DNA of 41,719 nt from Paracoccaceae bacterium (GTDB lineage Bacteria > Pseudomonadota > Alphaproteobacteria > Rhodobacterales > Rhodobacteraceae). Shown here one piece after another: positions 22,154 to 28,380 of this stretch (within the stretch, counting starts at the first letter, position 1; each line of letters begins with the position of its first letter). The notes below the pieces were generated by a model, which saw nothing but the letters and a program-made list of their open reading frames with translations, was not told the DNA's origin and ran no database searches. The position numbers and the translations under genes are program-made. The stretch covers positions 1 through 41,719 of the forward strand of contig JACZKR010000078.1 in NCBI GenBank assembly GCA_014859945.1, read 5' to 3'.

Positions 22154-23295
22154 AGATTACCGGGGCCTGGCTGACCGATCCGGCCACGCAGGCGTTGTGC
22201 GCGGCGGTCACGGCGGCCGGTCACCGCATCCTGTTTGTGGGCGGCTGCGTGCGCAACGCGCTTTTGGGCGTGCCGGTTTCGGATATCGACCTTGCAACCG
22301 ATGCGCGGCCCGAAACAGTCTCTGACATTGCCGAAAGCGCAGGTTTTCGGGTGGTTCCGACCGGGATTGACCACGGCACCGTGACGGTGATTGCCGGGGG
22401 TGTCCCGCATGAGGTGACGACCTTCCGCCGCGATGTGGAAACCGACGGTCGTCGCGCCGTCATCGCCTATTCCACCGAACTGGCCGAGGATGCGGCACGG
22501 CGGGATTTCACCATGAACGCGCTTTATGCTGATGCTGTGGGCAATGTCGTCGATCCGCTGGGCGGGCTGCCCGACCTTTTGGCGCGGCGGGTACGGTTTG
22601 TCGGCGATGCCGGCACGCGCATTGCCGAGGACTACCTGCGCATCCTGCGGTTCTTCCGCTTTCACGCTCATTTCGGCAATCCGGATGAGGGGCTTGACGC
22701 CGAGGGCCTGGCCGCCTGTGCGGCAGGAAGTGCAGGAATAGAGACACTTTCGGCCGAACGCATCGGGGCCGAGATGAAAAAACTGCTGGCCGCGCCCGAC
22801 CCGGCGCCTTCGGTCTGCGCGATGGCGCAGGCGGGCATCCTGCTGCAGGTTTTGCCTGGGGGCGACCCGCAGTTTCTGGCGCCCCTGGTGCATGTGGAGG
22901 CCGGGCGCCCGCCCCGCTGGCAGCGGCGGCTTGCGGTGCTGGGCGGCGATCTGATCCGACTGCGGCTGAGCAAGGCCGAAACAGTCACTGTTTCAGCTAT
23001 TCGGGACGAAATCGGCAGCCTGCGCAGCCCTGCGGCCCTAGGGTTTCTGCATGGGGCCGAGGTGGCGGCGGATGTGCTGCTGATCCGGGCGGCGATGCAG
23101 CTGGCGCCGCTGCCCGAAGGCTGGCCGGCCGAGGTGGACCGCGGGGCTGCGGCACGCTTTCCGCTGCGCGCAGCCGACCTTGCGCCGCTGGCGGGCCCCG
23201 ATCTGGGCCGGCGGCTGAAACTGCTGGAACAGCGGTGGCTGGCCAGTGATCTGCGGCTGGACAAGGCGGCCTTGCTGCAGAGCAGCGACGATTGA
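22150..23295 (+). CDS. cca: CCA tRNA nucleotidyltransferase / poly(A) polymerase family
   Basis: FVGGCVRNALLGVPVSDIDLATDARPE, RRDFTMNALYAD, DYLRILRFFRFHAHFG. Confidence 0.92.
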   Translation: MKITGAWLTDPATQALCAAVTAAGHRILFVGGCVRNALLGVPVSDIDLATDARPETVSDIAESAGFRVVPTGIDHGTVTVIAGGVPHEVTTFRRDVETDGRRAVIAYSTELAEDAARRDFTMNALYADAVGNVVDPLGGLPDLLARRVRFVGDAGTRIAEDYLRILRFFRFHAHFGNPDEGLDAEGLAACAAGSAGIETLSAERIGAEMKKLLAAPDPAPSVCAMAQAGILLQVLPGGDPQFLAPLVHVEAGRPPRWQRRLAVLGGDLIRLRLSKAETVTVSAIRDEIGSLRSPAALGFLHGAEVAADVLLIRAAMQLAPLPEGWPAEVDRGAAARFPLRAADLAPLAGPDLGRRLKLLEQRWLASDLRLDKAALLQSSDD

Positions 23296-23355
23296 GGGGT
23301 GACAAAGCCGGAACCTTCGGCTACCCCTGCCAGCATCGAAGCGAAGGAGCGCGGC

Positions 23356-23388
23356 ATGGATAACGGGATTTTTGTTCGTCAGAGCTGA
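23356..23388 (+). CDS. Putative leader peptide MDNGIFVRQS upstream of the ABC exporter operon
   Basis: ATG GAT AAC GGG ATT TTT GTT CGT CAG AGC TGA; GAAGGAG Shine-Dalgarno 6 nt before the ATG; followed immediately by alternative hairpins. Confidence 0.55.
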   Translation: MDNGIFVRQS

Positions 23389-23389
23389 C

Positions 23390-23427
23390 CGAACCGATCC
23401 CGTCTGGCGGTTCGCAAGCAACCGCCA
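23390..23427 (+). promoter_or_regulatory. Putative attenuator: mutually exclusive hairpins
   Basis: CGAACCG (23390-23396) pairs with CGGTTCG (23408-23414); the overlapping TGGCGGTT (23405-23412) pairs with AACCGCCA (23420-23427). Confidence 0.55.
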
Positions 23428-23465
23428 CCAGTCCAATAAGCCGTTCCGCCTTATGAGGCCGCTTC

Positions 23466-25304
23466 ATGTTCCGCTTCTTTGAGAATCTCGTCGATCCCTA
23501 CGCCAGCTATGCGCAAACCGACACGCCGCCGCGCAAGCTGTGGCCGTTCCTGCGTGAATATATCCTGCCCTTCCGCACGGTTTTCGCCGTCACCGCCATT
23601 CTGTCCATCGCCAATGCAGCGCTGGATGTGGCGCTGATATGGTATGTCGGCCGGCTGGTTGACGTTCTGGCCACCGGGCAGCCGGCGGCGGTCTGGGCAA
23701 GCCACGCATGGGAGATTCTGGCGGTGGCCTTCGTCATTCTGGTGATCCGGCCGCTGGTCGCGGGCACCGATGTGGCGCTGCTGCACAACACCATCCTGAC
23801 CAATTTCGGCACGATGATGCGCTGGCGCGCCCATGCCCATGTGCTGCGTCAGCCGGTGGGCTGGTTTGAAAGCGATTTCGCCGGGCGGATCGCCAACCGG
23901 ATCATGCAGGCCCCCCCGGCAGCGGGTGAGGCGGTGTTCCAGACCTTTGATGCGGTGGCCTTCGCCTCGACCACGCTGGTGGGTGCCGCGATCATGCTGG
24001 CAGGGGCGGATGTGCGGCTGCTGCTGCCGCTGGTCCTGTGGTTCGCGGGTTATCTGGCGCTGATGCGCTGGACGATCCGGCGGGCCGGCCCGGCGGCGAC
24101 AGCCAGTTCTGACGCGCGCTCGGCCGTGACGGGGCGGGTGGTGGATGCCTATACCAACATCCACTCGGTCAAGCTGTTCGCCCATACCGACCGAGAGCTG
24201 GCCTATGGCAAGGACGCGATCGAGAATGCGCGCGCCACTTTCCAGAAGGAAATGCGCATCGTCACCACGATGGATATCGTTCTGACGGCGCTGAACGGCC
24301 TGCTGATCGTCGGTGTCACCGGCTGGTCGATGTGGCTGTGGTATCAGGGTCAGGCCTCGGTCGGCGCGGTGGCGGCGACGGCGGCGCTGGTGCTGCGGCT
24401 GAACAACATGACCTATTGGATCATGTGGGCGACGACCAACCTCGTCTCGAACCTGGGCGTGGTGCAGGAAGGTATGCAGACCATCACCCAGCCTGTGACG
24501 CTGACCGACGCGCCGGCGGCAAAACCGCTGGAGTTCCGGGCCGGTGAGGTGGTGCTGGACGGCATCTCGCACCATTACGGGCGGGGGTTCGGCGGGCTGC
24601 AGAACGTCACGCTGGCCATTCGTGCGGGCGAAAAGGTGGGCGTTGTCGGGCGCTCGGGCGCGGGCAAATCGACCTTGGTCAAGCTGATCCTGCGGTTCTA
24701 TGACACGGAATCGGGGCGAATCCTGATCGACGGGCAGGACATCAGCAAGGTAACGCAGGACAGTCTGCGCGCGATGATCGGCATGGTTCAGCAGGATTCG
24801 AGCCTGTTGCACCGGCCCGTCCGCGACAACATCCTTTATGGCCGGCCGGATGCCACCGAAGAACAGATGATCGCGGCGGCGAAGCGGGCCGATGCGCATG
24901 ACTTCATCCTAGGGCTGGAAGATCCGCAGGGCCGCAAGGGCTATGATGCCCATGTGGGTGAGCGGGGGGTCAAGCTTTCGGGCGGGCAGCGGCAGCGGGT
25001 GGCGCTGGCGCGGGTCATCCTGAAGGACGCGCCGATCCTGATTCTGGACGAAGCCACCAGTGCCTTGGACAGCGAGGCCGAGGCGGTGATTCAGGACGCG
25101 CTTTTCGGCGTGATGCAGGGCAAGACGGTGATCGCGATTGCGCACCGGCTGTCCACCATCGCGCAGATGGACCGGATCGTGGTTCTGGAAGATGGCCGGA
25201 TCGCCGAGCAGGGCAGCCATGCCGAGCTTTTGTCGCGCAATGGCCTTTACGCGCGTTTCTGGGCGCGACAGTCTGGCGGCTTCATCGGCATGGATGATGC
25301 ATGA
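23466..25304 (+). CDS. ABC transporter ATP-binding protein/permease (exporter half-transporter 1)
   Basis: N-terminal TMD; GRSGAGKSTLVK, LSGGQRQRVALARVILKDAPILILDEATSALDSE, IAHRLSTI. Confidence 0.95.
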   Translation: MFRFFENLVDPYASYAQTDTPPRKLWPFLREYILPFRTVFAVTAILSIANAALDVALIWYVGRLVDVLATGQPAAVWASHAWEILAVAFVILVIRPLVAGTDVALLHNTILTNFGTMMRWRAHAHVLRQPVGWFESDFAGRIANRIMQAPPAAGEAVFQTFDAVAFASTTLVGAAIMLAGADVRLLLPLVLWFAGYLALMRWTIRRAGPAATASSDARSAVTGRVVDAYTNIHSVKLFAHTDRELAYGKDAIENARATFQKEMRIVTTMDIVLTALNGLLIVGVTGWSMWLWYQGQASVGAVAATAALVLRLNNMTYWIMWATTNLVSNLGVVQEGMQTITQPVTLTDAPAAKPLEFRAGEVVLDGISHHYGRGFGGLQNVTLAIRAGEKVGVVGRSGAGKSTLVKLILRFYDTESGRILIDGQDISKVTQDSLRAMIGMVQQDSSLLHRPVRDNILYGRPDATEEQMIAAAKRADAHDFILGLEDPQGRKGYDAHVGERGVKLSGGQRQRVALARVILKDAPILILDEATSALDSEAEAVIQDALFGVMQGKTVIAIAHRLSTIAQMDRIVVLEDGRIAEQGSHAELLSRNGLYARFWARQSGGFIGMDDA

Positions 25305-27157
25305 ACCCGCTGATCTTCGGACCCGCCATCCCGCCTTTCGCCGAGGCGGAAACCTCGCCGCCGCAGCGTCTCTGGCCCTTCTTCGGATGGGCGATGAAGG
25401 GGGCCTGGCCCGGGGTGCTGTGGGCCGGGTTCTGGTCGGCGGCCGCCGGCTCGCTTGAGGCGGTTTCGGCCACGATTCTGGGGCTGGTCGTCGATGCGGC
25501 GGCCAGCACCCACCCCGAAACCGCGCTGGCAGACCATTGGCAGCTGGCGGCGTTGTTCCTGGTGTTCTACCTGCTGCTGCGGCCGGCGATCTTTGGCCTG
25601 AACACGGCCGCCGCCTCGGTCCGGCTGGAGCCGAACCTGTTCCCGCTGATCCTGTCGCGCGTCCATCGCTGGACGATGGGGCAGGCGGTGACCTTCTTTG
25701 ACAATGATTTCGCCGGGCGGATCGCGCAGAAGCAGATGCAGACGGCGCGGGCGGCGACCGATGTGATCTCGGGCACGATCGAAACGGTGGCTTTCGCGCT
25801 GGCCTCGGTCGTGGGGTCGGTGGCGCTGTTGATGGCGATTGACCTGCGGATTTCGGCGCTTCTGCTGCTTTGGGTGCTGGCTTACTGCCTGTTCATCCGG
25901 GGCTTCCTGCAGCGCATCCGGGGGGCGTCGGCGGCGCGGGCGGCGGCGCGGGCTATGGTGACGGGGCAGATCGTTGATACCGTCACCAACATGAAGACGG
26001 TCAAGCTGTTCGCCCATGCCGAACATGAAGACCGCGCCGCGCTGGAGGCGATGGGCAGCTTCCGCGCGCGGGCGACGGAATACGGCATCATCTCAAGCTG
26101 GTTCCGGCTGTCGCTGATGGCGCTGGCCGGGGTGCTGCCTGTGCTTCTGGTGGGAGCGGCCGCCTGGCTGTGGATGCAAGGTGGCGCCACGGCGGGCGAT
26201 ATTGCGGCGGCGGGGGCGATTTCGTTCCGGCTGGCGCAGCTGACCGGCTGGGTGTCCTTCAGCCTGATGGGCATCTTCGGCAATCTGGGTGAGGTCGAGG
26301 ACGGCATCCGCACCCTGACGCCGCCCTACACGCTGGCCGATGCGCCGGATGCCACGGAACTGGGCAGGATTGCGGGCGATGTGCGTTTCGATGCCGTCAC
26401 CTTCGCCTATGGCCGCAAGTCCGAAGCGGGTCGCGGCGGGGTGGCGGGCATCAACCTGCATATCCGGCCGGGCGAAAAGATCGGCGTCGTCGGCGCCTCG
26501 GGCGCGGGGAAATCGACGCTGGTTTCGCTGCTGTTGCGTCTCTATGACGCCGAACAGGGACGCATTCTGATCGACGGGCAGGATGTGCGGCACGTCACGC
26601 AGGAAAGCCTGCGGCGGCAGATCGGCATGGTCACGCAGGAAACCGCGATGTTCAACCGCACGGCGCGCGAGAACATCATCTACGGCAATCCGGCCGCGAC
26701 CGAGGCGCAAATGATCGCCGCCGCGCAGGCCGCCGAAGCGCATGAGTTCATCCTGTCCCTGCGCGATCATCAGGGCCGCACCGGCTATGACGCCTATTTG
26801 GGTGAACGCGGGGTCAAACTGTCGGGCGGGCAGCGTCAGCGCATCGCACTGGCCCGGGCCTTCCTGAAAGACGCACCCATTCTGGTGCTGGATGAGGCGA
26901 CCAGTGCGCTGGATTCCGAGGTTGAGGCCAGCATTCAGGCCGCCCTTGCCCGGGTGATGGAGGGCAAGACGGTTGTGGCCATTGCTCACCGCCTTTCGAC
27001 CATTGCCGAGATGGACCGGATCATCGTACTTGACGAAGGCCGCATCGTCGAGGAAGGCAGCCATGCCGACCTGCTGGCGGGTGGTGGGCTTTATGCCCGT
27101 TACTGGAACCGTCAGTCGGGCGGCTTCATCGGCACCGACGAGAAGGGCACCGCGTGA
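25301..27157 (+). CDS. ABC transporter ATP-binding protein/permease (exporter half-transporter 2)
   Basis: GASGAGKSTLVS, LSGGQRQRIALARAFLKDAPILVLDEATSALDSE, IAHRLSTI; ATGA overlap with the upstream gene. Confidence 0.95.
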   Translation: MNPLIFGPAIPPFAEAETSPPQRLWPFFGWAMKGAWPGVLWAGFWSAAAGSLEAVSATILGLVVDAAASTHPETALADHWQLAALFLVFYLLLRPAIFGLNTAAASVRLEPNLFPLILSRVHRWTMGQAVTFFDNDFAGRIAQKQMQTARAATDVISGTIETVAFALASVVGSVALLMAIDLRISALLLLWVLAYCLFIRGFLQRIRGASAARAAARAMVTGQIVDTVTNMKTVKLFAHAEHEDRAALEAMGSFRARATEYGIISSWFRLSLMALAGVLPVLLVGAAAWLWMQGGATAGDIAAAGAISFRLAQLTGWVSFSLMGIFGNLGEVEDGIRTLTPPYTLADAPDATELGRIAGDVRFDAVTFAYGRKSEAGRGGVAGINLHIRPGEKIGVVGASGAGKSTLVSLLLRLYDAEQGRILIDGQDVRHVTQESLRRQIGMVTQETAMFNRTARENIIYGNPAATEAQMIAAAQAAEAHEFILSLRDHQGRTGYDAYLGERGVKLSGGQRQRIALARAFLKDAPILVLDEATSALDSEVEASIQAALARVMEGKTVVAIAHRLSTIAEMDRIIVLDEGRIVEEGSHADLLAGGGLYARYWNRQSGGFIGTDEKGTA

Positions 27158-28380
27158 GGATTACCATCGAACGGCTGGGCCATCTGGGCGACGGCATCGC
27201 CCAGACCGAGGCCGGCCCGGTTTTTGCCAGCGGGCTTCTGCCCGGCGAGGTGGCCGAGGGCACGCTGACGGGCGACCGGCTGGGCGATGTGCGGATTGTC
27301 ACGCCCTCGCCCATGCGGGTCAAGGCGCCGTGCAGTCACGCAAAGCTGTGCGGCGGTTGCCTGATGCAGCATGCGGCGGACAGCTTCGTCGCGGACTGGA
27401 AAGAAGGCATCGTGCGCGGCGCGCTGGCGGGTCAGGGGCTTGAGGCGCCGTTCCGGCCCATGGTCACCTCGCCCCCCCGGTCACGCCGCCGCGCCACGCT
27501 GTCGGGGCGCAAGACCAAGGGCGGCGTGCTGATGGGCTTTCATGCCCGCGCCTCCGACATGATCGTGCCGGTGCCGAATTGCCAGCTTCTGCACCCCGGT
27601 TTGGTCGCGGCCTTTCCGGGGCTTGAGGCGCTGGTGCGGCTGGGCGGCAGCCGGTCGTCCGAGGTCAGCCTGACCGTTACCCACAGCCTCGATGGCCCGG
27701 ATGTGGCGGTTTCGGGCGGTAAGGAACTGGATGGCGCGCTGAGGATGGACCTTGCCCGCATCGCCGAGGCCCACGGCATCGCCCGCCTGACCTGGAGCGA
27801 TGAGACGGTTGCCCTGCGTGCCGCGCCCCGGCAGCGGATGGGGCGTGCCACGGTCACCCCGCCGCCCGGCGTCTTCCTGCAGGCCACGGCCGAGGGCGAG
27901 GCGGCGCTGCTGGCGGCCGTCCGGGATGCCATCGGGCCGGCCCGGCGCATTGCCGATCTGTTCGCGGGCTGCGGCACCTTCACCCTGCCGCTGGCCGAAA
28001 CCGCCGAGGTGCTGGCGGTTGAGGGCGAAGCTGCCATGACCGCCGCGCTGGAGAAAGCCGCCCGCGGGGCCGAAGGGCTGCGCCGGATCACCGTTCAGGC
28101 GCGCGACCTGTTCCGCCGCCCGCTGGAACCCGATGAGCTGAAGGCCATCGACGCCGTGGTCATCGACCCGCCGCGCGCCGGGGCCGAGGCGCAGACCGAA
28201 CGCCTTGCCGCCGCGAAGGTGCCGGTGATCGCCTCGGTGTCCTGCAATCCGGTGACCTTTGCCCGCGATGCCCGCGTGCTGACCGCCGCCGGCTATGTGC
28301 TGGACTGGGTGCAGGTGGTTGACCAGTTCCGCTGGTCGGCCCATGTCGAGCTTGCCGCCCGGTTCCACCTGCCCCGCTAG
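27154..28380 (+). CDS. Class I SAM-dependent RNA methyltransferase (TrmA/RlmD-like)
   Basis: CSHAKLCGGCLMQH Fe-S cysteines, DLFAGCGTFTLPLA, VIDPPRAGAEAQ, SVSCNPVTFARD; GTGA overlap with the upstream gene. Confidence 0.9.
   Translation: MRITIERLGHLGDGIAQTEAGPVFASGLLPGEVAEGTLTGDRLGDVRIVTPSPMRVKAPCSHAKLCGGCLMQHAADSFVADWKEGIVRGALAGQGLEAPFRPMVTSPPRSRRRATLSGRKTKGGVLMGFHARASDMIVPVPNCQLLHPGLVAAFPGLEALVRLGGSRSSEVSLTVTHSLDGPDVAVSGGKELDGALRMDLARIAEAHGIARLTWSDETVALRAAPRQRMGRATVTPPPGVFLQATAEGEAALLAAVRDAIGPARRIADLFAGCGTFTLPLAETAEVLAVEGEAAMTAALEKAARGAEGLRRITVQARDLFRRPLEPDELKAIDAVVIDPPRAGAEAQTERLAAAKVPVIASVSCNPVTFARDARVLTAAGYVLDWVQVVDQFRWSAHVELAARFHLPR

Follow-up and report, generated by a model that had tools for sequence, protein, structure and literature searches.

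A candidate uORF-controlled translational attenuator upstream of an ABC exporter operon in Rhodobacteraceae

The window (the whole stretch of DNA that was analyzed, 41,719 nucleotides, a single contig of a Rhodobacteraceae-type alphaproteobacterium) carries the genes for Hsp33, a NUDIX protein and a CCA/poly(A) polymerase-like protein (gene end at 23295), followed by the two subunits of an ABC exporter and a methyltransferase homologue (Table 1). The relatives of subunit 1 found in NCBIfam and PDB are multidrug/lipid-type exporters, all of them scoring under the curated equivalog cut-offs, and the nearest named relatives by ABC protein belong to Pseudorhodobacter and related genera. The methyltransferase homologue, whose start (27154) overlaps the end of subunit 2, was found 3' of the ABC genes in 14 of the 16 relatives fetched, leaderless ones included. 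Some genomes have a third ABC subunit in tandem behind the pair (L005/L272, L015/L275, L014 and L010; e.g., G005, G027 and G028).

The stretch between the polymerase-like gene and subunit 1 contains a promoter-like element, a short leader ORF with its own Shine-Dalgarno sequence (SD), and several complementary arms. A preliminary description had proposed that a leader ORF and hairpins that exclude one another form a candidate attenuator of the paired exporter here. Checked against the sequence, its elements (the SD GAAGGAG, the ORF, both alternative hairpins, CCGCC at 23446-23450 and the GAGG of the ABC gene) were all exact; P-1, P0, P1 and the pairing of arm 2 inside the ORF are additions of the present analysis. 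The fold of 23341-23490 had a z of -3.87, with none of 200 shuffled sequences equally stable, and this stability, together with the recurrence of ORF and helices across the family, marks the 5' region as more than chance.

Table 1. Features of the exporter operon and its 5' region, in window positions
Feature	Position	Strand	Basis
Promoter-like element: GTGACA (23299-23304), 17-nt spacer, TACCCC (23322-23327)	23299-23327	+	Motif recurrence
P-1 5' strand GAAGCG, directly before leader SD	23338-23343	+	MFE pairing with 23460-23465; swap test
Leader Shine-Dalgarno (SD1), GAAGGAG	23344-23350	+	Sequence; strong SD also precedes the leader ORF of relatives
P0 5' strands (23346-23348, 23351-23355, 23357-23361), leader SD and start region	23346-23361	+	MFE; swap test
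Leader ORF MDNGIFVRQS*, 10 sense codons and TGA	23356-23388	+	Start, stop and length kept in relatives
P1 5' strand (arm 1), leader codons 3-5	23363-23370	+	Pairs with 23396-23403; swap test
Apical P1b: GTTCGTCA (23374-23381) with TGA.CGAAC (23386-23388, 23390-23394)	23374-23394	+	MFE; swap test
Arm 2, CGAACCG	23390-23396	+	Pairs with ORF (P1b) or arm 3 (alternative 2:3 helix)
P1 3' strand GATCCCGT	23396-23403	+	Alignment A3; swap test
P2 hairpin: arm 3 TGGCGGTT (23405-23412) with arm 4 AACCGCCA (23420-23427)	23405-23427	+	Swap test
CGGTTCG, partner of arm 2 in alternative 2:3 helix	23408-23414	+	Sequence; A3; swap test
P0 3' strands (23431-23435, 23440-23444, 23445-23447)	23431-23447	+	MFE pairing with P0 5' strands
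P3 hairpin GCCT/AGGC over ABC Shine-Dalgarno GAGG (23455-23458)	23448-23459	+	MFE fold
P-1 3' strand CGCTTC, spacer between ABC SD and ABC start	23460-23465	+	Covaries with leader SD region
ABC exporter subunit 1, 612 aa	23466-25304	+	Pfam ABC_membrane and ABC_tran
ABC exporter subunit 2, 618 aa	25301-27157	+	Start overlaps subunit 1 end; Pfam, NCBIfam
RlmD/TrmA-like 23S rRNA uracil-5 methyltransferase homologue	27154-28380	+	NCBIfam RlmD, under cut-off

The distribution of the leader was assessed in 153 genomes, in the region 5' of the ABC subunit 1 orthologue, a leader being defined as an SD-preceded ATG ORF of 8 to 11 codons ending about 66 to 125 nt before the ABC start. Such an ORF was present in 68 of the 153 regions. 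The 65 retained after curation fell into three classes, MYxG[I/L]W (GIW, 35 leaders), MxRDRxxxSFA-like (DR, 9) and MxNGI-like (NGI, the class of the window, 21). A covariance model (R1) built on 16 members of the last class, with 7 P1 pairs, gave a single confident match in its own genome (E value of 3.5e-14) and 33 matches in 298 genomes of the family, and all 30 matches with fetched loci lay directly 5' of ABC subunit 1. Searched against 239 other genomes sampled across the bacterial class, R1 found no match, the window's own genome being matched. Among 80 named ABC loci, the model and a separate ORF rule picked the identical 26, and every one of the 34 model matches outside the curated set had an ORF of 9 to 11 codons. 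Named carriers include Tabrizicola aquatica, T. soli, T. thermarum, T. flagellatus, Rhodobacter calidifons, Xinfangfangia pollutisoli and Defluviimonas aestuarii. Many ABC orthologues have no leader, one of them (L005) within the genus of the window, and leader presence on the ABC tree (124 proteins) required at least 17 changes versus 34 with shuffled labels, so that the leader must have been repeatedly lost or gained.

Some of these upstream regions had features of their own. In leaderless orthologues (L005 to L011, L016 and L017), the intergenic stretch is short and a TATATC-like element lies near the ABC start. One locus (L018, G012:C3) has an atypical leader, MNRGSRNTRS, located 143 nt before the ABC start and accompanied by a large GC-rich hairpin; the tblastn match to the adjoining ABC gene contains a single internal TGA. 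In another (L124, G080:C19) the leader reads MVIYRIRFSNV, and the intergenic stretch after it is ~40 nt longer than in relatives.

Of 99 sequences with a leader, 81 had the motif [TG]TGAC at 45 to 75 nt 5' of the leader start (mean of 6 after shuffling). Given this conserved promoter-like motif, the leader is very likely transcribed together with the operon, and a transcription start downstream of 23388, named beforehand as contrary to an attenuator, is argued against. A generic sigma-70 scan of the window did not call the element at 23299-23327.

The leader start and an in-frame stop are always kept, and the identity of the stop switches among TGA, TAA and TAG. The other two frames have a stop at codons 9 to 12 in only 4 and 13 of the 34 extra model matches. 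The peptide itself drifts: pN/pS of the leader was 0.59 to 0.74, in no class significantly below the column-permuted null, and two leader-bearing relatives of the same genus encode MDHGTFRPQP. ErmCL relies on a specific arrest peptide, IFVI, to which the IFVR of the window had been likened in the preliminary description. This parallel has to be abandoned, since IFVR is not kept even within the genus and selection at the amino acid level was not detectable, and the suggestion of slow translation through AT-rich central codons fares no better, as these codons are not conserved among relatives. A conserved arrest peptide of the ErmCL type was looked for across the leader classes and none was found. 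With a peptide that is neither conserved nor under significant selection, an arrest-peptide mechanism is not supported by the sequences.

Pairing was evaluated with an alignment-free approach because class-wide alignments were poor (RNAalifold on MAFFT whole-class alignments returned an energy of 0 for both GIW and NGI). In this swap test, the duplex energy of each strand with its own partner is compared with that obtained with partners from other species. Among 98 distinct sequences, P-1 (z of -9.3), P0 (-8.8), P1 (-9.0) and P2 (-6.7) all stood out, each with 0 of 2,000 permutations; the z values ignore phylogeny, and three control pairings without support (z from -0.4 to +2.4) reduce the concern about kinship without removing it. 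Within the NGI class the alternative 2:3 helix (z of -6.6) and P1b (-4.3) gave the same permutation result (0 of 2,000). P1b holds the leader stop codon, and in it CGAAC (23390-23394) pairs with GTTCG inside the ORF (23374-23378). In an alignment (A3), changes on both sides were seen for three of the five 2:3 pairs and for one pair in P1, a signal destroyed by sliding the partners; at one position of P1, G-C was replaced by A-U in 5 of the 16 sequences. Covariation thus supports five helices, namely P-1, P0, P1 and P2 as well as the alternative 2:3 helix in the class of the window. The folding model also produced the 2:3 arm in the GIW class, with covariation that was not significant (z of -1.5), and the swap test gave no signal for P3 (z of +1.6), which in many relatives takes a GCUC..GGAGC form. 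A pairing of SD1 with ABC codons 2 to 7, present in a 150-nt fold, was discarded, as no covariation was detected (z of -0.1 in the window's class and -0.9 in all sequences). As for the central proposal of the preliminary description, the check that it had named beforehand came out in its favor: the leader frame is conserved upstream of the paired exporter and the exclusive arms covary in relatives.

We modeled a ribosome on the leader by masking 30 nt, refolding the RNA and computing the energy needed to open the ABC ribosome-binding site (RBS). From the free RNA to a ribosome on codon 1, the predicted cost fell from 10.1 to 6.5 kcal/mol in the window's class, from 10.4 to 7.5 kcal/mol in GIW and from 11.4 to 6.3 kcal/mol in DR, and it drifted back toward the free value once the ribosome reached codons 7 and 8. 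When helices enclosing the ribosome were allowed, little opening was predicted for stalls past codon 3; when they were forbidden, the cost was about 5 to 7 kcal/mol at any ribosome position. With the ribosome on codon 4, the 2:3 helix in the window's class rose from 0.3 to 5.9 expected pairs and P2 dropped from 6.6 to 2.7, compared to 1.3 to 1.5 expected pairs for the 2:3 helix in shuffled sequences. In the window itself, the 2:3 helix was weak in the folding model (0.8 pairs with the ribosome at codon 4), and the ABC site stayed closed (>11 kcal/mol) unless enclosing helices were forbidden, which brought the cost to about 7 kcal/mol. The computed opening cost and the covariation of P-1 together indicate, on computational grounds, that the ABC RBS is sequestered in the default fold. 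The effect of ribosome position on the accessibility of this site is likewise a computed one.

Taken as a whole, we regard it as fairly likely that the region is a uORF-controlled, cis-acting translational attenuator of the ABC exporter operon. Transcription would begin 5' of the leader. With no ribosome on the leader, the 5' UTR would form one multibranched structure in which P-1 ties the spacer in front of the ABC start codon to the SD region of the leader, P0 ties the leader start region to the stretch 3' of P2 (enclosing P1 and P2), and P3 covers the ABC SD, leaving the ribosome-binding sites of both leader and exporter closed. If a ribosome were held at the leader start or over the first few of its ten codons, P-1 and P0 would stay open, and a ribosome on codons 3 to 5 would also free the arm behind the stop codon for pairing with the 5' arm of P2. 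The switch would then run from 1:2 plus 3:4 to 2:3, exposing the exporter RBS. Since the ORF sits inside a folded RNA that hides the exporter start site, ribosomes on the leader probably decide exporter synthesis; by analogy with toiL and BmrB (see below), slowed ribosomes, or ribosomes stalled by drugs, are the probable signal. The sequences show conservation, covariation and an exclusive association with the exporter genes; translation of the leader, the direction of control and the inducer are the elements that we infer. It is also conceivable, and we suggest it tentatively, that the attenuator senses ribosome occupancy independently of the peptide. The leader SD region would lock the exporter RBS, anything parking ribosomes at the first codons would open the lock, and what the switch reads would be the residence of ribosomes, not a specific arrest sequence.

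Switches of this kind are already known. ErmC-type attenuators combine a short leader with four arms (1:2 plus 3:4 against 2:3) and a hidden downstream RBS. The present leader shares all three features and differs in its unconserved peptide and in having the leader SD region itself paired to the downstream RBS spacer. The nearest mechanism is that of toiL, a short uORF 5' of the topAI-yjhQ toxin-antitoxin operon of E. coli, in which a repressive structure links the uORF to the downstream RBS, and for which it has been proposed that ribosomes stalled by several drug classes at the start or later codons open the structure (PMC12121999). Both the short uORF and the repressive structure joining it to the downstream RBS recur here. 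However, the operon under toiL control encodes a toxin-antitoxin pair and belongs to a gammaproteobacterium, whereas the present candidate precedes an ABC exporter in Rhodobacteraceae, pairs its SD region with the exporter RBS spacer and adds a classical 2:3 alternative arm. BmrB, the 53-aa leader ORF of bmrCD in Bacillus subtilis, has an intrinsic terminator inside the ORF (PMC4191407). It resembles our leader in logic only, in that both use the ribosome as sensor, have alternative hairpins and place a leader ORF ahead of the paired genes of a multidrug-type ABC exporter; here the ORF has 8 to 11 codons, there is no intrinsic terminator, the helices sequester the RBS and the lineage is unrelated. 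Within the same order, Rhodobacterales, the uORFC-8-2 motif is a structured uORF attenuator 5' of cysS (PMC8632094). It differs in its tandem Cys codons and terminator U-run and in controlling cysS, and is unrelated to the ABC exporter operon. None of BmrB, toiL, CutF of Rhodobacter (PMC9973294) and the cysS motif, as described in the literature, corresponds to the ABC leader, of which we found no description, and the supplementary lists of RNA surveys (PMC8632094 and others) may list the motif. What is unusual is that the SD region of the leader pairs directly with the spacer of the exporter RBS.

Control could also act on transcription, as in BmrB, with the ribosome choosing between terminator and antiterminator or with Rho acting in the untranslated leader or the early ABC gene. 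The 1:2/2:3/3:4 layout, in which arm 2 directly follows the stop codon, is that of a classical attenuator, and translational repression at toiL results in termination by Rho within the downstream gene (PMC12121999), so that translational and transcriptional layers can coexist. However, no intrinsic-terminator-like site was present in 23000-23600, no U-run follows P2 in the window, and the long-range helix with the strongest covariation extends to the ABC start codon, as would fit control of translation initiation. The lack of an intrinsic terminator and the action of the conserved long-range helices on the exporter RBS make translational control likelier, and we consider transcriptional attenuation improbable. 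The attenuator of the preliminary description therefore stands in outline, without its arrest motif and probably at the translational instead of the transcriptional level; its BmrB parallel is a loose one.

We give little credence to a riboswitch, RNA thermometer or protein-binding leader that senses a signal other than the ribosome and in which the ORF is incidental. Such an element would be in keeping with an unconserved peptide and with a compact, multibranched fold in which the two SDs are paired, but would be hard to reconcile with an in-frame start and stop that are always kept while the stop codon changes, and with the lack of such stops in the other two frames. The three classes also share no conserved unpaired core of the kind expected of a ligand pocket, and a true Rfam match is absent (the window gave one match at chance level, E value of 4.3, and 11 relatives gave a single weak and unrelated one, E value of 0.5). 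Constitutive translational coupling, in which leader translation just holds the ABC site open without sensing stress, agrees with the maximal predicted opening by a ribosome at the leader start and with the lack of peptide-level selection, but is very unlikely as well, since the leader stop and the ABC start are separated by ~77 nt that include P2, probably too far for direct reinitiation, and the covarying 2:3 arm would have no purpose.

If the translational attenuator is confirmed, many Rhodobacteraceae would have a dedicated ribosome-sensing control of a conserved operon for an ABC exporter and an rRNA-methyltransferase homologue, which would hint at ribosome-targeting compounds among those that the exporter encounters. 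As the leader ORF is kept and its peptide drifts, the need for an arrest peptide in such sensors becomes directly testable by mutation, and the three classes, with different peptides and common outer helices, provide natural variants for comparison. Attenuation at the invariant TGG (Trp) codon of the GIW class was rejected as a general explanation, the other two classes having no conserved Trp there. Within the GIW class, GGG ATC TGG (Gly-Ile-Trp), which may act as an RNA motif or through the peptide, is nearly fixed in the 35 leaders (L012, L057, L106, L108 and others), though the pairing partners vary.
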